Shown here: piece after piece, positions 8,477 to 41,305 of the stretch
Numbering within the stretch: the first letter of the stretch is position 1
Layout: every line of letters starts with the position of its first letter
Assembly: GCF_040869045.1 (NCBI RefSeq)
Contig: NC_090323.1
Coordinates: 263,566,392-263,630,391, forward strand
Reading direction: 5' to 3'
DNA from: Eurosta solidaginis
Taxonomy: Eukaryota; Arthropoda; Insecta; Diptera; Tephritidae
Length of the DNA: 64,000 nt
Program-made: the position numbers and the translations under genes
Notes under the pieces: model-generated
What the model was told of the DNA's origin: nothing
Database searches by the model: none
The model's input: only the letters and a program-made list of their open reading frames with translations

Positions 8477-10018
8477 ATGGAAATAATCACAAAGATGGAG
8501 AGAAAAAGAATGATAACAACCCCCGCACAGCCACCCAGAATCTACGGCCTCCCGAAGATTCATAAGGAAGGAACTCCATTAAGGCCAATATGTTCAGCAA
8601 TCGGGTCACCTTCTTACACACTGTCCAAATATATGGCAGACATTTTAAAAAACGTAACGGCGAGTTCTACGTACAATATTAAAAACACAATTGAGTTTAA
8701 AGAAAGAGTAAACAATACATACATATACGAAGATGAAAAGCTTATTTCCTTTGATGTAGTTTCGCTTTTCCCTAGCATCCCGATACAATTGGCACTTGAA
8801 ATAATACAAGAGAAATGGAATACAATTAAAGAATACACAAAGATACCAAAAACGCTGTTCATGGAAATAATTAAATTCTGCATTCAAGAGAGCAGATATT
8901 TCAAATTCAATGATACTATCTATACGCAACTAAAAGGAATGCCGATGGGTGCACCCACATCCCCAATAATAGCGGATATAGTTATGGAAAAATTATTAGA
9001 TGATACTATGCTGAAGTTGCGACATAAACCAAGAATACTTACCAAATACGTCGACGACCTATTCGCGATAATAAAAGAAAATGAAATACAAAACACACTT
9101 GACACACTAAACACTTTTGACAAAAATATAAAATTTAGTATAGAACTAGAGAACGACGAGGAATTACCATACCTGGACTCCATAATAAACAGACGAGGAA
9201 ATCAATTAAAACTAAAGTGGTATCAAAAGCCTACAGCATCAGGACGAATTATAAACTTTAATTCAAAACATCCGAAAACAATGATTATGAATACAGCAAA
9301 GGGCTGTATACGGAAAATGTTGCAGACTTCAGATGAAGTATACCACAAAGAAGTTAAAAAAGAAATTTTCACATTACTAAGAAACAATGATTTTCCGAAA
9401 AAAACCATAAAAACTTTATTAAGAAAAACCAAAAATTTAAATAGACTAAAAACTCCCGATAAACCCATTATTTTCAAGTCGGTGGCTTATGTACCGCAGC
9501 TATCAGAACGTTTAGCAAAATCTGACTGCTATGATAAAGAAACTACAAAAATTGCACATAAACCTACGAACACTTTAAAAAACATATTTAACAAAACAAA
9601 ATCGAAAATACCAATAATGGAAAAAAATAATGTAGTTTACAAGATACCATGTAAAGGCAATAGCGATGAAACGTGCAATAATATATATATAGGTACTACA
9701 AAGTCCAAACTCAAAACGAGAATTTCACAGCATAAGTCTGATTTTAAATTTTGCCATCAAGTTAATAATCAAAAAACAGCACTCATGGCCCACTGTGCAG
9801 ACAGCGGCCACACACCAAACTTTGATGAGACTAAAATACTGCAACAGGAACAACACTATAACAAACGCTTCACACTAGAAATGTTACACATTATTAATAT
9901 TCCGACTAACACACGACTGAACTATAAGAGCGACGTAGATCACAGCGCACATATCTACAAACACCTGCTCACTAAAAAACAGTACCATACTCCACGTCGG
10001 ACAAAGCAGACGTGTTAA
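8477..10018 (+). CDS. Penelope-like element RT plus GIY-YIG endonuclease
   Basis: C-terminal 513 aa of a Penelope-like retroelement polyprotein, which copies its RNA into DNA at a nicked target. Reverse transcriptase motifs: finger region GLPKIHKEGTPLRPI (about 24-38), motif A SFDVVSLFPSIP with D93, motif B GMPMGAPTSPIIAD (about 154-167) and motif C YVDD (191-194) with both Asp intact. A GIY-YIG endonuclease follows (about 386-445): VVYKIPC, NNIYIGTT, the KLKTRISQHK helix and a Cys/His cluster around 439-445. Canonical Penelope proteins are some 300 residues longer, so the copy is 5'-truncated. The frame is already open from about 8432, so the ATG at 8477 is probably internal. There are no stops or frameshifts, unlike every other TE gene here, which suggests a fairly young insertion. 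It abuts the decayed repeat at 7481-8430. Confidence 0.93.
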   Translation: MEIITKMERKRMITTPAQPPRIYGLPKIHKEGTPLRPICSAIGSPSYTLSKYMADILKNVTASSTYNIKNTIEFKERVNNTYIYEDEKLISFDVVSLFPSIPIQLALEIIQEKWNTIKEYTKIPKTLFMEIIKFCIQESRYFKFNDTIYTQLKGMPMGAPTSPIIADIVMEKLLDDTMLKLRHKPRILTKYVDDLFAIIKENEIQNTLDTLNTFDKNIKFSIELENDEELPYLDSIINRRGNQLKLKWYQKPTASGRIINFNSKHPKTMIMNTAKGCIRKMLQTSDEVYHKEVKKEIFTLLRNNDFPKKTIKTLLRKTKNLNRLKTPDKPIIFKSVAYVPQLSERLAKSDCYDKETTKIAHKPTNTLKNIFNKTKSKIPIMEKNNVVYKIPCKGNSDETCNNIYIGTTKSKLKTRISQHKSDFKFCHQVNNQKTALMAHCADSGHTPNFDETKILQQEQHYNKRFTLEMLHIINIPTNTRLNYKSDVDHSAHIYKHLLTKKQYHTPRRTKQTC

Positions 10019-10200
10019 TAAAAGTATGTATTTATGTGAAATGTAAAATGCAAAATTTGTTTATTGTTATGTTTATTATTTTTGTTAGTTGCTACAATCC
10101 TGAAGATGATTGCCGTTGAGCAATCGAAATATATCGATTTAGAAGAAGAATCAAAGGGTATTTTTTAATTTTTCAATTATAAAACACGGACCTAAAGCCA
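10019..10200 (+). mobile_element. 3' UTR of the Penelope-like element
   Basis: AT-rich trailer with an AATAAA just after the stop, followed by the hammerhead motif at 10096-10139. The right boundary is estimated from loss of structure; no target duplication was found. Confidence 0.6.
10096..10139 (+). ncRNA. Hammerhead ribozyme, Penelope type
   Basis: The core matches the hammerhead rule CUGANGA / GAAA / NUH. CTGAAGA is at 10100-10106. Stem II is GATTGC (10108-10113) paired with GCAATC (10120-10125) across a 6-nt loop. GAAA is at 10126-10129. A minimal stem III (A-U plus one pair, 2-nt loop) follows, then cleavage after AUC at 10135. Stem I is AATC (10096-10099) with GATT (10136-10139). Minimal hammerheads of this layout are known in the terminal repeats of Penelope-like elements, where they are thought to process the RNA. 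Found by eye; activity untested. Confidence 0.7.
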
Positions 10201-17734: not shown

Positions 17735-19180
17735 CAGATTCCGTTACATACATACATGGATATATAGATAGATACAGGCCAAGCTAATAAAAGCGTGTTA
17801 AAAAGGGCTCTTTCGTAGATGTGCCATGCATCCCCTTCTATCATTAATAAAGGAATGCGTTCTTCGAATTATGTGCAAGGTTTCAAATCAATGGCCATTT
17901 GGGGTGGTCATAAGTTCAATTGACCTTATATCCGTTAACCTTATGTCACCCCCCTATCACATTATTGCATTTTCATTGAGCCTTGATACGTGTGCAAAGT
18001 TTCAATCAAACTTATGGCCATTCAAAGTTGTAATAAGGTATTGACCTTATGGCCGTTGACCTTATGTCGCCACACCATCACATTAATGCATTGTCATCGA
18101 GCCCTGATACGTGTGCAAAGTTTCAATGAAACTTATGGCCATTCAAAGTGGTAATAACGCCAATTGACCTTATGGCCGTTGACCTTATGTCACCACACCA
18201 TCACATTAATGCATTATCATCGAGCCTTGATACGTGTGCAAAGCTTCAATCAAACGTATGGCCATTAAAAGTGGTAATAAGGCAAATTGGCCTTATGTCA
18301 CCGCACCATCACAATAATGCATTGTCATCGAGCCTTGATACGTGTGCAAAGTTTCAATCAAACTTATGGCCATTCAAAGTGATAATAAGGCCAATTGACC
18401 TTATGGCCGTTGACCTCATGTCACCACACCATCACATTAATGCATTGTCATCGAGCCTTGATACGTGTGCAAAGTTTCAGTCAAACTTATGGCCATTCAA
18501 AGTGGTAATAAGGCCAATTGACCTTATGGCCGTTGACCTTATGTCACCGCACCATCACATTAATGCATTTTCATCGAGCCTTGATACGTGTGCACAGTTT
18601 CAATCAAACTTATGGCCACTCAAAATGGTAATAAGGCCAATTGAACTTATGGCCATTGACCTTATGTCACCGCACCATCACATTAATGCATTGTCATCGA
18701 GCCATGATACGTGTGCAAAGTTTCAGTCAAACTTATGGCCATTCAAAGTGATAATAAGGCCAATTGACCTTATGGCCGTTGACCTTATGTCACCACACCA
18801 TCACATTAATGCATTGCCATCGAGCCTTGATACGTGTGCAAAGTTTCAATCAAACTTATGGCCATTCAAAGTGGTAATAAGGCCAATTGACCTTATGGCC
18901 GTTGACCTTATGTCACCGCACCATCACATTAATGCATTTTCATCGAGCCTTGATACGTGTGCAAAGTTGCAATCAAACTTATGGCCATTCAAAGTGGTAA
19001 TAAGGCCAATTGACCTTATGGCCGTTGACCTTATGTCACCCCACCATTACATTAATGCATTGTCATCGGTCCTTGATACGTATGCAAAGTTTCAAATTAA
19101 TCAGACTTCTAGAAACCGGTGAAAATTAAGCTAAAAGATTCCGTTACATACAGGCCAAGCTAATAAAAGCGTGTTAATAA
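17735..19180 (+). repeat. 123-bp minisatellite, about 10 units, with flanking repeats
   Basis: Units of 123 bp (41 codons) run from about 17890 to 19105; one unit is 108 bp. Each contains TTATGGCCATTCAAAGTGGT, CCTTATGGCCGTTGACC and CACCATCACATTAATGCATT. Because 123 is a multiple of three, one frame stays open for over 300 codons, but it starts with no suitable ATG and looks like a by-product of the repeat. The array is bracketed by a direct repeat (ATTCCGTTACATAC...CAGGCCAAGCTAATAAAAGC) at 17738-17800 and 19138-19178. Confidence 0.9.
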
Positions 19181-35765: not shown

Positions 35766-36685
35766 TAAGTTCATTAAGTTTCAGCTCGTAATTTTTACTC
35801 TGAGCATTTTTCCAAAGATCTCATTTGAGATAGTATAACCAAAATACAGGCTAAACCGTTTTGAAGAAATATCGAAACTATCCTGACCTAAACTTAGAAT
35901 ATGTCTTGAGTTAAATCCAAAAATTATAAAATTCGTTTCATAATATTCTTTAACTGATCCCAAAATTACGTTGTGAAATCTTCAAATGCATTTCTAATGC
36001 CATATAGAATTTTTCATAAAAAAAAGCAGTAAGCGCAAAATCAAAAAGTACGAAAGTAAATCCGAGAATAGAAAACAGACGAAGAATAATTCTCACAACA
36101 AGTGCTATTTGATGATGCTCGTAATCACGGAAGGTGTCAAGAAAAGGCGAACTGATTCTTAAAGTGTTCGAGAGAGAAAATCTTCTGAAGATTTATAGTT
36201 TATATGCGTTACCGATGATCTTGGGCTGCATAAAATGTACGCAGATATGAGGGTAGTGCAGCGAATAAAAGTCCAAAAGCTTCACTGGCTAAGTCAGTGG
36301 AGGGGAAAACCACCACTGAGTTGGGAGGGGCAGGTGGGGGAAAGACTTAAGCTCCCTTGGTTCTCCGCAGTGCCCTCAGTTCTCTCAAAACAGTGAAAGC
36401 TAGCCTGACTTGTTAAGAAGCGGCTAAAATCCCTTAGGCTGTTAAGCAAGAATTAATGATGATTAAAATTTCCTAGAAAAAGTATAGCTAACTTCAAAAA
36501 TTGTCAAGTGGTAGCGAAATTTTTATAGAATTAGAATAGTCCCCCATGTGGTCCCATAAGGGCTAAAATGGTTAAATTAGTATACAAAGTATGCCCAAAA
36601 AAAGTTTTGAAACATATATGGAAATTAATTTAAATTAGACAACGTTTCTTCGTCGAAGTTTTGTTTCACCAAACTTCAAAAAATT
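35766..36685. other. Unassigned DNA, possible TE tail
   Basis: Between about 36120 and 36470 the plus strand has a worn coding look (GTGTTCGAGAGAGAAAAT..., GGGGCAGGTGGGGGAAAG) that may be the C-terminal tail of an RTE-like element, with several stops. I cannot support this beyond composition. The remainder is featureless. Confidence 0.3.
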
Positions 36686-36689
36686 TGGG

Positions 36690-36890
36690 AAGGGATCAAA
36701 TATTTCTCATGCAGAAAGTTTTGATAACATTACGATTGCCTGATGATGATTACGTGGCGGTTTTCGAAATGGTACCATCGCAATATGCCAGTAAATGTTT
36801 CTTCCTTTTCAGTTTCTCTTAGAAAAATATAATAATTGAATTTTCAATTATTATAAGCCGGTGCAAAGCGCGTGAATTCTTAAATTTAAA
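36690..36890 (+). mobile_element. Hammerhead SINE, copy 1 (5'-truncated)
   Basis: Shares with copy 2 the blocks TTTTGATAACATTACGA, CCTGATGATGATTACGTGGC, GAAATGGTACCATCGCAAT and TAAATGTTTCTT. It also shares a 3' tail, TCAGTTTCTCTTAGAAAAAT plus AATAATTGAATTTTCAATTA, a perfect small hairpin. The tRNA-like head of copy 2 is missing here. Confidence 0.75.
36735..36784 (+). ncRNA. Hammerhead ribozyme motif in SINE copy 1
   Basis: Stem I is ATTGC (36735-36739) with GCAAT (36780-36784), five pairs. CTGATGA is at 36740-36746 and GAAA at 36766-36769. Stem III is A-TGG, loop TA, CCA-T (36769-36778), with cleavage after AUC at 36779. Stem II (36748-36765) is weaker: G-C, A-U, two U.U, A-U, C-G around GTGGCG. 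All invariant core bases are present. Confidence 0.65.
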
Positions 36891-37278
36891 TATATATAAC
36901 ACACTGTGTGTGCGTGTGTGTTCGCTATGGAGATGTATTTTCCACACTTCAATCATCACCAAATATTGGCTATAGGTTCCTTTGAAAAACACGAATGTTT
37001 TAGGCTAAAAATAATTATGAATATTTAGTTATTATAAGCCAGTGTTAAGCTCATGACTTCTTAGATAATAAGTATAAACTGAACACACCATTAAACAAAC
37101 AAACATAAATATGTAAAACTGAGCGCGAGTTTACAAAGCTTCTCATTCGCAATGAAAAGGAACTTTACAAAAACAAATCTACATAACACACAAATTAATA
37201 TAGAGACAGAATGTCTAAATTGTGTTGTTAGTGTAGAAATAAGATAAACTGAATTAGGCCAGGAAACAAATACAAGCA

Positions 37279-37500
37279 GGATAGCCTAGTGGTTAAGGCA
37301 ACTGCAATTTTACCGTGTGATTCGCGGTTCGAATCTCGGTGAAACCTTTGATAACATTACGAAATCGCCTGATGATGATTACGTGGCATTCTTCGAAATG
37401 GTACCATCGCAATGTAAATGTTTCTTTTTTTCTTTTCAGTTTCTCTTAGAAAAATATAATAATTGAATTTTCAATTATTATAAGCTCGTGAATTCTTAAA
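37279..37500 (+). mobile_element. Hammerhead SINE, copy 2 (full, tRNA-headed)
   Basis: The head has pol III promoter boxes: A-box TAGCCTAGTGG (about 37285) and B-box GGTTCGAATCT (about 37326), spaced as in tRNA genes. The acceptor and anticodon arms do not fold as a normal tRNA. The body holds the hammerhead motif at 37364-37413. It ends with TCAGTTTCTCTTAGAAAAAT and an AATAATTGAATTTTCAATTA hairpin. About 220 bp, no coding. Confidence 0.75.
37364..37413 (+). ncRNA. Hammerhead ribozyme motif in SINE copy 2
   Basis: CTGATGA is at 37369-37375, GAAA at 37395-37398 and stem III TGG/TA/CCA at 37399-37406, with cleavage after AUC at 37408. Stem I is ATCGC (37364-37368) with GCAAT (37409-37413), four of five pairs. 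Stem II differs from copy 1 (GATTACGTGGCATTCTTC) and is weak. Confidence 0.6.
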
Positions 37501-37549
37501 TAAGAAGCGAATGAATTATAAATCTGACACAGAAGACTGTACGCACGTC

Positions 37550-38060
37550 TATCGAAATTTAGTGCTGAAACAACAACAACATACAATGTGATTTGATCAG
37601 TGTTCATCATACGGCAGCGAATACATACTTGGCTACAACAAACACAGCAAGAAGATGATTAGGAAATTTGTTCTTATTGTTTGTTGTTACATATTTTTTT
37701 AATTTTGTTTCTACTTGACGGTAAATGCTTTAAGAAAATTTTGTTTACACTTACGGTACTTTAAATTTTTTTACCTTTTCTCCTGCTTTGTCTTTGTTCA
37801 TTCATCTGTTTTAACATATCATCAGTCGAACAAGTAAATTCATTTGTGCAAGTTGTATTTGTTTATGAAATACATATGTCAATATGTAAAATATCCACCT
37901 GCTATTCTTATATTTGCCTAATGTTTGTTATTCTATTTTGTGTTTTTTAGTCCTGATGATGGTTTCAGATTGAAACCGAAATATCGACCAATTATATAAA
38001 TTATAATACCACAAAATATATGGTGTTTTATTTATCCTTGCGGCTTTGAGCTCAATAATT
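37550..38060 (+). mobile_element. Penelope-like 3' end, second family
   Basis: Non-coding AT-rich DNA leading to a hammerhead at 37950-37988. It resembles the layout downstream of the intact Penelope-like gene but is not close in sequence, so it is probably the 3' remnant of a different subfamily. The left limit is uncertain. Confidence 0.45.
37950..37988 (+). ncRNA. Hammerhead ribozyme, Penelope type
   Basis: Stem I is GTC (37950-37952) with GAC (37986-37988). The core CTGATGA is at 37953-37959. Stem II is a perfect GGTTTC (37961-37966) with GAAACC (37972-37977) around AGATT, and GAAA is at 37978-37981. Stem III is a one-pair A-U closing a 2-nt loop, and cleavage follows AUC at 37985. This is the cleanest hammerhead in the window and has the minimal stem III seen in Penelope-like elements. 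Confidence 0.75.
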
Positions 38061-38390
38061 AACCAAAAAGTTAAAATACACTTATAGGGCTATTAACAAA
38101 ACCCAAAAATTAAATAATAAATATAAATTGAACACACCATTAAACAAACAAACAGAATACAAATCTTGAACTTTAGGAAATTCCTTTGTTTCTTATTTAG
38201 TGCAATAGTTCTGCCTCCCGAGGTTGTCCGAAAATCACACAAGAAACTATGTTTTTGCCATCAACTCTGAGAGTATGATTTGAAGAGAGAATTAAGAGCA
38301 TCATACGTATTCCAAAATACGGGCAGCGAAACGAACACGTCCTTTGATTGGCCATTCGCAGAATGTTCGATTTAGAAGGAAAGTCGTCAC

Positions 38391-38585
38391 CATGGCGGAA
38401 CGATACAAGGTGGCAGCATGGGTCAGTTGATTATCAACTTTTTTTTATTTGATTTGATACATCAACTTCCGGCGCAGTGCGATTTTGACATTTGTCCATC
38501 GAATTTACAAAAACAAAGTACATTGAATTTATATTTATGTTTGTAGGTATGTCACCATGCTGCCACCTTGTATCGTTCCGCTATG
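38391..38585. mobile_element. P-element-like MITE, copy 1
   Basis: 195 bp with inverted ends starting CATGGCGGAACGATACAAGG (then TGGCA) and closing TGCCACCTTGTATCGTTCCG-CTATG. It is flanked by a perfect 8-bp duplication, GTCGTCAC (38383-38390 and 38586-38593). The end resembles the Drosophila P-element terminus (CATG...GAA...A.A.AAGGTGG pattern), and 8 bp is the P-type duplication size. Non-coding. Confidence 0.85.
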
Positions 38586-38949
38586 GTCGTCACAATTCGG
38601 TTGAGTTTTTCGTTTGGTTAGATGCACAGTTGCCACACCATGTTTTTATTTGGGGCCAAAAATTTATCAAAAAAAAAAAGGACCAAATCTCAAAGAAATG
38701 GACCAAATTTTTGTGTTTTTTAATTCGCTTACAAAGAATTCGGCAATTCACAAATGTGTCGAATTCGTTGTACAATCTTTAATTTTATGTTATGGTAAAG
38801 TACAATGCCACACACACTTTCATTTTAACAAAAAGCCTTATATAAATATATGTTTGAACTAAAACCCTAAGAAGAAAACCCGTGTCGCAAGCCAAACTAG
38901 TTCTGTTTTATTTACATAAAAATCTTATTTAAGATATTTTTAAGAATTA
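38586..38949. other. Unassigned AT-rich DNA
   Basis: Reading frames on both strands (38492-38782 + and 38590-38775 -) overlap the MITE and each other and show no domain. No gene called. Confidence 0.35.
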
Positions 38950-39215
38950 AGAGCTTAACACCGGTGAAAAATAATTGCTATTCAATTACTGAGATTGTTA
39001 TTCAATTATTATTTTCGTTTATTGGGAAAAACTGGAAAGAAGGAAACATTTAATGGCATATTGCGATGGTACCATTTCCAAAACCACCACGTCATCATCG
39101 TCAGGCAATTTCATAATTTTTTTTTTATTCCAACAAGTTTCACCGCGTATTGAAACATGGTCAAACTGCTGAAATCACAATCGCCTAACCATTAGGCAAT
39201 TGTGTTGTATTTGCC
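38950..39215 (-). mobile_element. Hammerhead SINE, copy 3 (inverted)
   Basis: Read on the minus strand: a worn tRNA-like head (ATTGCCTAATGGTTAGGCGA at about 39200), then CGCGGTGAAACTTG. The hammerhead block, TAAATGTTTCC-TTCT, CCAGTTTTTCCC and an AATAATTGAATAACAATC tail follow. The order of parts matches copy 2, so head, ribozyme and tail belong to one family. The B-box is no longer recognisable. Confidence 0.7.
39060..39109 (-). ncRNA. Hammerhead ribozyme motif in SINE copy 3
   Basis: On the minus strand, stem I ATTGC/GCAAT is fully paired. The core is CTGACGA (position 7 may be any base), GAAA is present, and stem III TGG/TA/CCA and the AUC site are intact. Stem II is TGATGACGTGGTGGTTTTG, with the closing pair lost. 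Core, stem I and stem III are thus kept in a copy that differs at many other sites. Confidence 0.62.
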
Positions 39216-39559
39216 TTCCTTAAAATATCTTAAGTAAAGTTGAACACACCATTAAACATAAAAACATAAATATCTTGTTTTTAAAATAAATGTCTGCAAA
39301 ATTAGTCCTAAACGTTAAAAAAAAAAGTTGTTCCCAACAGCTGGATGTTCCATTTTTTTAAATTTATTCTTTACTCTTCCGTACCAATGCACCCTCACTC
39401 TTTAATTTTCCCATCTATGGCCTAGAATCAGCAAGTGAGAGTTTTGAAATGTACACTTTTTTCCACATAATTTGTGTTAGAGAAAAATTCACCTTTCAAA
39501 ACTCACATTTAGTGAATTTAGCCGCAGTCCCTAGATTAACCGTTGAGAAGTCTTAAAAC
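39216..39559. other. Unassigned DNA
   Basis: Contains GAACACACCATTAAACA at about 39242, a word also found at 37081 and 38131, so probably part of another small repeat. No gene. Confidence 0.35.
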
Positions 39560-41305
39560 AATATATAATGCATCCTACGGTCGATAAAGATAGACGGAGA
39601 GCCAATAGACACGCACATAAACACAAATTCAGCGCGTCACCAAACGCCATCACCGCTAAAGAGGTTGAGGACGCCATTGGTCGCGCTAAACCATCCAAAG
39701 CAGTGGGCCCAGACGGCATAGCCATGCCGATGCTTAAAAGCCTAAGGAAAAAGGGTTTCAAATATTTATCGCATGTCTTCAACCTGTCTCTTTCCACCTT
39801 TGTCATACCCGAGAAATGGAAAATGGCCAAGGTGGTCCCACTACTAAAGCTTGGGAAACCAGCTAACATAGGTGAGTCGTATCGTCCGATATTTCTCCTA
39901 TCGCCAGTGGCAAATACGCTTGAAGCTAACCTCTCATCAGCATGGCTTCAGAAAACTCCATAGCACTACCACCGCACTAAATGCCATTAGCACCCAGATC
40001 AATTGCGGTTTAAATCAATACCCCCACCATAGAACAGTACTCGTAGCGCTAGACCTAACAACAGCTTTTGACACGGTCAACCATGGCTCGTTACTGCAAG
40101 ACCTGGAAGGGTCTACCCTTCCCCCATGTCTTAAAAGGTGGACCGCAAATAATCTGGGTGGTCGGCAGGCATCGGTGCAATTTAGAAACGAAACATCAAA
40201 ACCAAGGAGAATTAAACAAGGGGTGCCACAGGGTGATGTCCTATCCCCACTTCTGTTTAATTTCTACATATCTAAGCTACCTCCACCACCGGAAGGAGTC
40301 ACAATCGTTTCCTACGCCGATAACTGCACAATAATGGCCACAGGCGCATGCCCAAAGATCGATGCGCTAAGCAATAAAATAAACGGCTACCTCCGTGATC
40401 TCTCCAGTTTTTTCACCACGCGAAACCTGGCATTATCACCGACTAAATCTTCCGCCACCTTATTTACAACATGGAAGTCCCAAATGTCGACCATTTTGAA
40501 CATCCACGTCGATGGCACTACGCTACCGACTGTCTTACACCCCAAAATCTTGGGTGTGACGTTTGATCAGGATCTACATTTTGGTGAGCACGCAGCCGCA
40601 GTTGTTCCGAGAATTCAGAGCCGTAACAAAATCCTCAAATCCCTCGCTGGAAGTACCTGGAGAAAAGATAAAGAAACTCTCATGACTACATACAAAGCAA
40701 TTAGCCAGCCGATTACGTGCTACGCGTCACCCATATGGTCGCCAAGCCTAAAAATTACCCACTGGAAGAAAGTACAGGCCTGATTAATGAACCAGCACCG
40801 CCTAGGGGCTTAAGGAGTCATCTCCGTAAGCATTTTGAGGAAATACGGCACCTGAGAACCCAGCCGTATGAAGCGAAAAAACACAAGCATGTCCTTGGTG
40901 AACTCCGTAAACAGGCGTCGGACCTTTATGCCGGGAATTGCCCGGAGAATCCAGTACTTAAAGAAAAGTATCCAAAACTCGCGGAAGAGGAACGCATACT
41001 CCCCAGGGAAACGCGTGTCACTCTTGCTCAACTTCGTTCTGTAACAGGCTAAACTCTTACCTATCCAGAATCAACCCCGACATACAAAATGTATGCCCCG
41101 CTTGCAATGTGTCCCAACATGACACCAACCATCTCTTTAATTGTAATGTGGATCCAACGCCTCTAACACCCCTTTCCTTACGGTCCACTCCAGTTGAAAC
41201 GGCAAGTTTCCTTGGACTCGCGTTAGAGGATATTGATGACAATTTGTAATCGGCCGTGGCTATTAGGTGGGGCGAAGCATTGCTACACCAACAACAACAA
41301 CAGAA
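39560..41305 (+). pseudogene. Jockey-type non-LTR retrotransposon, dead copy
   Basis: 5'-truncated reverse transcriptase gene. 39568-39900 holds the RT start (AKPSKAVGPDGI, then KMAKVVPLLKLGKPANIGES). After a frameshift near 39900, 39930-40783 holds QHGFRKLHSTTTAL, ALDLTTAFDTVNH (motif A), RIKQGVPQGDVLSPLLFNF (motif B), VSYADNCTIMA (motif C) and the thumb with LGVTFDQDLHFGEHA. Motif C reads ADN instead of ADD, so a catalytic Asp is lost. A second frameshift near 40770 leads to a C-terminal part, and a third near 41040 to CPACN...HLFNC, a Cys/His knuckle. The 3' UTR ends at about 41300 in a CAA repeat. No endonuclease domain remains. Confidence 0.9.

Follow-up and report, generated by a model that had tools for sequence, protein, structure and literature searches.

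A repeat family of the tephritid fly Eurosta solidaginis is represented by three copies between positions 36690 and 39215 of a 64,000-nucleotide (nt) stretch of its genome (contig NC_090323.1, positions 263,566,392 to 263,630,391; hereafter the window). The repeat is a real, abundant, composite element. Judging from sequence comparisons, it is probably a short non-autonomous, tRNA-containing retroelement that is moved by the reverse transcriptase of Penelope-like elements (PLEs) and carries a PLE-type hammerhead block of predicted activity. The preliminary description, drawn from the window alone, had proposed a short interspersed element (SINE) with a tRNA-like 5' head and a hammerhead ribozyme. 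RNA polymerase III (pol III)-type boxes and a hammerhead-type block are indeed joined in one multi-copy SINE-like unit. The tRNA-like part, however, does not form the head, and the kinship that we see is with the PLE-type hammerheads of the same genome.

We searched the E. solidaginis genome (1.908 Gb in 569 contigs) with two of the window copies. Copy 2 gave 2694 first-look candidates, 40 of which were scored and yielded 42 matches at 87-100% identity; copy 3 gave 1784 candidates, and 40 of these yielded 57 matches. The element is short, non-coding, dispersed and of high copy number, as is a tRNA-derived SINE. When copies were aligned together with their flanks, similarity ran on upstream of the tRNA-like part in many of them, and a head-to-tail repetition in locus L013 and its neighbours defined a unit of 453 bases. 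With u1 placed at GAACACACC, the tRNA-like part begins internally at u200, followed by the hammerhead-shaped block (about u274-349; core at u290, predicted cut after u329), a hairpin and the 3' module. Head-to-tail arrays with a spacing of about 450 bases were found at five loci (L013, L014, L023, L024 and L025, of which L014 and L025 overlap). Among the 28 loci L003-L030, eight consist of a single segment, eight of a main copy accompanied by an inverted or other piece, seven hold more than one unit and five are arrays. A satellite or tandem repeat with chance tRNA and hammerhead fragments, spread by recombination rather than retrotransposition, would suit the arrays (at 91.9 and 92.7 Mb of contig C5) and the seven further loci with more than one unit. 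We nevertheless regard it as very improbable, given the sixteen loci with a single segment or a single copy beside another piece, the dispersal of copies on several large contigs, and the combination of variable 5' ends with clustered 3' ends.

Inverted pieces stand head-to-head beside a number of the SINE-like copies. In loci L067, L070, L073, L077, L079, L082, L085, L088 and L089, all of the subfamily B introduced below, the inverted piece begins at nearly one query base (166-169), and its distance to the 5' end of the main match is 6-17 nt; this looks as though the head-to-head composite itself had multiplied.

All three copies proposed for the window were recovered (Table 1), and the first two turned out to be parts of one tandem, in which an intervening stretch separates copy 1 from a segment that crosses a unit boundary. 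The core CTGANGA, the GAAA and the palindrome ATGGTACCAT followed by C are intact in all three, and stem I (ATTGC/GCAAT) is complete in copies 1 and 3 and has four of five pairs in copy 2. The A and B boxes are likewise distributed as described before: both in copy 2, worn in copy 3 and absent from copy 1, since the latter begins at u262 of the unit. The boxes are retained in both subfamilies, yet they are internal. ARAGORN found no tRNA in the window, and the Rfam tRNA model scored 14.7 bits in a sister copy (L004) against a cut-off of 29. The region 36690-39215 has a second copy about 160 kb away (C5:263763390, locus L002; C5:263764845, locus L062) with 97-98% identity over two matched stretches; it thus seems to lie within a segmental duplication.

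The tRNA-like part and the block are not chance neighbours, because copies chosen solely for their tRNA-like part, with duplicates removed (49 of subfamily A, 39 of subfamily B), give majority sequences that contain the block. Between these two sequences the block differs at 2 of 50 sites, against 36 of 134 in the nearest upstream and 9 of 70 in the nearest downstream sequence (Fisher p 0.002). One difference falls on the free base N7; the other changes a U-U mismatch in stem II to G-U. This comparison replaced a first one (33 + 28 copies; 2/50, 37/135 and 9/70), in which choosing copies by an intact word had fixed 18 of the 50 block sites, and the two choices gave nearly equal numbers. It also superseded a statistic on copies 1 and 3 (0/30 critical against 12/66 flank sites changed, p 0.016). 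The source sequence is therefore under constraint, which does not in itself prove the fold.

CUGANGA, GAAA, UH and stems I and III of a type I hammerhead are present in both subfamily consensus sequences. A loose pattern of core, GAAA, stem III and a 5-bp stem I, with stem II left free, is satisfied by copies 1 and 3 and not by copy 2. As random 64-kb windows contain this pattern 0.06 times on average (37 cores in 600), the motif alone would be suggestive; the genome-wide family turns it into a solid observation. The conserved stretch extends from AACATTAC to GTAAATG, and its arms can form an outer stem I of eight pairs with one bulge, which 436 of 40000 random flanks match. A laxer test of the outer stem (six pairs, G-U allowed) was dropped, as 7448 of 20000 random flanks pass it. 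UGGC in loop II could pair with GCCA in the loop of stem I, but 765 of 20000 random pairs of loops offer an equal match. A search of viral and prokaryote collections with 19 bases of the block returned no match.

In layout, the block corresponds to the minimal hammerheads of the resident PLEs. A descriptor that includes a paired stem II has just two matches in the window, one at 10100 and one at 37953, both of them PLE motifs; in random sequence it occurs at a rate of 0.025 per window (200 in 7944). In the parse used, a single extra base separates A9 from stem II in all PLE motifs, and the SINE block has the same order of elements, including this extra base, which also occurs at that place in a viroid hammerhead. 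The motif at 10100 begins 82 nt past the stop of a PLE frame, and 30 of 34 motifs of its family are identical in 30 loci (overlapping loci counted twice). The stretches preceding the two motifs align at 66% over 113 bases (E 8e-7), and a further 12 PLE loci have flanks ordered in this way. For covariation, 14 PLE rows were reduced to 11 by removing the near-duplicates L094, L100 and L101. Stem I pairs 1-3 were formed in 11 of 11 rows and pair 4 in 5 of 11, stem II pairs 1-6 were formed in 10-11 of 11, and pair types were altered on both sides at stem I pairs 2 and 3 and stem II pairs 2, 4 and 5; the PLE motifs thus covary from family to family. The core or GAA is damaged in 4 of the 14 loci (L092, L097, L100, L101) while stem II is still paired, which suggests that the PLE hairpin may be retained for something other than cleavage.

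The mode of mobilisation is indicated by the 3' ends. In 50 rows of subfamily A (edge and within-array rows left out; L001, L002 and the window being one duplicated locus counted thrice), 16 ends lie 108-125 nt and 10 lie 150-157 nt after the predicted cut, although some copy ends shift with scoring. Among 22 distinct subfamily B copies in which the word from GAAA to stem I is intact, six end at 111-125 nt, seven at 154-168 nt, and nine extend to at least 210 nt. These figures replace earlier ones (7/45 at 111-117 and 26/45 at 153-172), which ran into the consensus end, with 10 rows at 172. The element thus has two 3' end clusters and an optional tail of about 40 nt, as a non-autonomous PLE should. 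In the young PLE family of the window, 28 distinct rows comprise four ends at about 86 nt and 18 at about 110-125 nt after the predicted cut, five rows that continue into the next unit and one that is cut off. Inverted pieces are a PLE trait, and they and tandem or partly tandem copies are found in the SINE-like element and in the window's PLE family alike. The tandem or partly tandem arrangement is described for PLEs in a study of an anole PLE (PMC11167929). The same study defines the PLE 'tail' as an extension of 30-40 bp between two reverse transcription start sites in an AC-rich stem-loop, the tail being optional because reverse transcription starts at either site. Because the SINE-like copies end as Penelope copies do, borrowing of the Penelope copying machinery is probable.

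We also compared the 3' modules by an anchored global alignment of the last 72 nt, from CCGGTGTT to the second end, with 2000 shuffles and with segments chosen after the local alignment was known. In this test, subfamily A scored 15 against the PLE family of 37850-38109 (shuffles -4.0 +- 4.4; 0/2000 as good) and was better than all 2000 shuffles against a sister copy of that PLE, and subfamily B scored 8 (7/2000 as good) and 6 (22/2000), respectively. Two other PLE families showed no resemblance in the anchored alignment (496-1179 of 2000 shuffles as good). When folded, each of four 3' modules formed one long stem of differing bases, followed by an open A-rich end. The resemblance of the SINE 3' module to that of one resident PLE family is thus supported but not certain. 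The proposed partner family is of the type of P0020, a predicted E. solidaginis PLE protein of 848 amino acids (aa): the frame that follows the tail of the 37850-38109 family in locus L102 begins like P0020 (62.5% over 32 aa, E 3e-10).

A number of results weigh against a PLE-moved element with a working hammerhead. Stem II is as weak as the preliminary description had it, the three masters forming 4, 4 and 5 of its six pairs, and the SINE copies of the window fail the paired-stem-II descriptor that detects both PLE motifs. The hammerhead fold drawn by hand has -4.6 (A), -4.1 (the GAATTC variant of A) and -5.1 (B) kcal/mol, 9-12 above the free optimum of -13.6, -15.8 and -14.4 kcal/mol, in a folding model that leaves out loop-loop contacts; the PLE motifs come closer to their optima (-5.7 vs -7.0 at 10100; -5.8 vs -10.9 at 37953). 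The Rfam hammerhead models proposed as a check gave nothing at gathering score in the window and, with the threshold set to E<=10, nothing in 36500-39400, in 36715-36800 or in the sister copy L004. We rejected Rfam as a judge of ribozymes here, and its negative says little, because the PLE motif at 10100 was missed too. The compensatory changes expected from a multi-copy alignment were not seen either: in 80 distinct A and B copies, no pair of stems I-III was changed on both sides to another Watson-Crick pair, and covariation within the SINE family was set aside as a test, there being too few masters. In 51 distinct A copies, changed sites numbered 17/456 in the core, 17/509 in stem I, 13/510 in stem III, 56/911 in stem II and 38/1359 in the flanks, so that individual copies lose the core about as fast as the flanks and decay freely once inserted. 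Random core changes without covariation had been named beforehand as evidence against a ribozyme; individual copies do show them, whereas the two masters keep the block nearly unchanged. As to mobilisation, 24 of the 50 subfamily A 3' ends fall outside both clusters, no clear target-site duplications were seen in 12 copies inspected, and free local alignment of SINE and PLE 3' parts was not significant (for the best of 28, 17/400 shuffles as good). Moreover, the anchored test was designed only once the local alignment had been viewed, and it compared the module with PLE families only. TTTT runs within the unit could stop pol III and so argue against long transcripts by this polymerase. When the hammerhead of the anole PLE was disabled, insertion in vitro was unaffected, and cleavage occurred only with added protein (PMC11167929).

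Several of these points would suit a tRNA-derived SINE moved by an ordinary long interspersed element (LINE), SINEs being described as users of LINE enzymes. The hammerhead likeness would then reflect a central domain conserved for a different use, or a functionless fossil. The element resembles a SINE in its tRNA boxes, its 5' truncation and its short, A/T-rich 3' end; the fold and stem II disfavour a hammerhead; Rfam matches and compensatory changes are lacking, and the 3' comparison was confined to PLE ends. Nevertheless, (i) the two 3' end clusters and the tandem arrangement are as in PLEs, (ii) the core order equals that of the resident PLE motifs, and (iii) the 3' module seems to resemble that of one PLE family. 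We therefore consider movement by a LINE improbable, and PLE mobilisation the best-supported mechanism, its engine likely being a Penelope-like reverse transcriptase. Self-cleavage of the block is a prediction only and unproven, stem II being weak in all three masters examined.

The 5' ends of the copies are scattered. Some copies start just upstream of the pol III boxes, at u177-190 in L016, L017, L019 and L022 and at u188 in copy 3, although other scoring shifts the start of L016 to u163 and that of L019 to u202. In subfamily B, 13 of 45 rows (not deduplicated) begin 21-39 nt upstream of the boxes, and seven of these start at one base, probably as a single composite lineage. Such starts fit initiation by pol III, a pattern noticed afterwards. 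Locus L011 starts at u331, adjoining the predicted cut after u329, and continues through the next unit, while L004 starts at u322. L011 is what a once-cut multimer would look like, and the pair could be taken to indicate a true non-LTR (non-long terminal repeat) retrozyme, whose self-cleaved multimers would yield circular RNA templates for new copies, the tRNA-like part being incidental. The tandem units, the copies that begin inside a previous unit and the palindromic stem III suited to dimers agree with this, as does the description of animal retrozymes as tandemly repeated units with type I hammerheads and presumed mobilisation by PLEs (PMC7761336, PMC7229834). We still regard a retrozyme as unlikely: the two loci are single cases, about what uniformly scattered 5' ends would give, neither starts nor 3' ends cluster at the predicted cut, and stem II is weak.

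For a PLE-moved element, the following course can be envisaged. Transcripts from the pol III-type promoter, or from an upstream neighbouring unit, would yield monomers and multimers. The 3' module of the RNA would be bound by the PLE protein, reverse transcription would begin at one of two points in or beside the terminal stem-loop, and the inserted copies would frequently be shortened on the 5' side. Least certain are the steps that involve the block. It might fold as a type I hammerhead, best as a dimer via the 10-nt palindrome of stem III, and might, by cutting multimers ahead of GCAAT, release 453-nt units for possible circularisation. In a dimer of the 50-nt block, the ten-base palindromes pair like helix III, and the remainder of the dimer folds in a way that is not a hammerhead. 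It is attractive to speculate, if tentatively and at somewhat less than even confidence, that the two elements are a SINE-PLE parasite pair, with a tRNA-promoted RNA, a copied PLE recognition module and a dimer-type hammerhead of the SINE's own, inserted by the PLE enzyme and not by a LINE enzyme.

Across 95% of its length, the PLE frame at the left of the window shares 99% identity with a 743-aa protein of E. solidaginis; most of its long relatives exceed it in length. Two related families also contain open PLE frames, and PLE copies with open frames in both orientations are clustered at C4:107263390-107297207 and C2:146290494-146302380. In viral and prokaryote collections, eight pattern matches to the PLE protein were obtained, none of which was confirmed as a relative. 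Elsewhere in the window, a 33-nt inverted repeat at 38389-38587 (97% complementary, arms 133 nt apart), possibly a fold-back element, has a weak microRNA-family match far under the cut-off. Just past copy 3, frames at 39568-40783 resemble a non-LTR reverse transcriptase by eye, and an open frame of repeated peptide (SPHHHINALSSSLDTCAKFQSN...) at 18148-19122 is probably a tandem DNA repeat.

Table 1. Positions in the window of the SINE-like copies, their parts and the Penelope-like elements
Feature	Position	Strand	Basis or detail
Copy 1 of the 453-base unit (u262 to u6-8), 5'-truncated, without tRNA-like part	36714..36904	+	BLAST to tandem unit; alignment
Hammerhead-like block, copy 1	36726..36799	+	Sequence, pattern, structure
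Copy 1, outer stem I	36726-36733 / 36791-36799	+	
Copy 1, inner stem I	36735-36739 / 36780-36784	+	
Copy 1, core; extra U; stem-loop II; GAA	36740-36746; 36747; 36748-36765; 36766-36768	+	
Copy 1, stem III palindrome; predicted cut	36769-36778; 36779^36780	+	
Second unit and a bit of the preceding one (u379 via unit boundary to u445), containing copy 2	37007..37507	+	BLAST; end moves to 37490 under other scoring
3' module and tail at unit boundary (GCCAGTGTTAAGC...GAACACACCATTAAACAAACAAACATAAAT), portion aligning with PLE 3' end	37038..37110	+	
tRNA-like part, copy 2	37279..37346	+	Sequence; Rfam tRNA model matches sister copy L004 weakly; A box at 37282-37292, B box at 37327-37337
Hammerhead-like block, copy 2	37364..37413	+	Core 37369-37375; stem III 37398-37407; predicted cut 37408^37409; one mismatch in stem I
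A/T hairpin between block and 3' module	Copy 1 36828..36855; copy 2 37455-37482	+	Repeat search
Copy 3, subfamily B	38950..39213	-	Reads from 39213 to ~38950; tRNA-like part 39137-39201
Hammerhead-like block, copy 3	39060-39109	-	Core 39104-39098; stem III 39075-39066; predicted cut after 39065
Unit-boundary fragment (u434 to u28)	38110..38157	+	BLAST to tandem unit
PLE open reading frame, 513 aa, reverse transcriptase	8477..10018	+	Pfam RVT_1; GIY-YIG end by eye
PLE hammerhead motif	10096..10139	+	Stem I AATC/GATT; core CTGAAGA 10100-10106; stem II GATTGC/GCAATC; predicted cut 10135^10136
PLE 3' part, P0020 type, proposed partner family, with own hammerhead motif	37850..38109	+	
Motif of the 37850-38109 PLE		+	Stem I 37950-37952 / 37986-37988; core 37953-37959; stem-loop II 37961-37977; predicted cut 37985^37986

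Several known systems share features with the fly element. Sm-alpha of schistosomes has a pol III promoter and tandem copies, to which the pol III-type boxes and tandem copies of the fly element correspond, and was reportedly presented by Ferbeyre in 1998 as a SINE-like retroposon with a hammerhead. It is likewise short and SINE-like with a type I hammerhead in PMC8490949; the fly element differs in its host and in its PLE-like 3' end with a tail. The minimal hammerheads of PLEs, reportedly described by Cervera and de la Pena (2014) and Lunse et al. (2017), resemble the SINE block in core order, in the short stem I, in a very short palindromic stem III and in a position about 100 nt ahead of the 3' end, and two of them lie in the window. 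In contrast, the fly SINE is a carrier without a protein gene, its stem II is imperfect, and its palindrome has 10 nt instead of 4-6. The animal non-LTR retrozymes (PMC7229834, PMC7761336) are also non-coding tandem units with a type I hammerhead and proposed PLE mobilisation, whereas the fly unit has a tRNA-like part, copy ends that do not cluster at the cut, and a length of 453 bases that exceeds the quoted 170-400 nt. Short non-autonomous elements assigned to Penelope are named in Heliconius (PMC6685494), the text we had of which describes neither a tRNA part nor a ribozyme. In the literature surveyed, partly as excerpts and with subscription papers mostly outside its scope, we found no fly tRNA-containing element with a PLE-type hammerhead and PLE ends.

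If the interpretation is correct, this abundant tRNA-containing element with its Penelope-like end would stand as a clear example of SINE-like parasitism on a different class of retroelement. The partnership is testable, as the proposed partner type is known in E. solidaginis as the predicted protein P0020. The fly element would also offer a natural test of what the Penelope hammerhead is for and of whether Penelope enzymes insert other RNAs.

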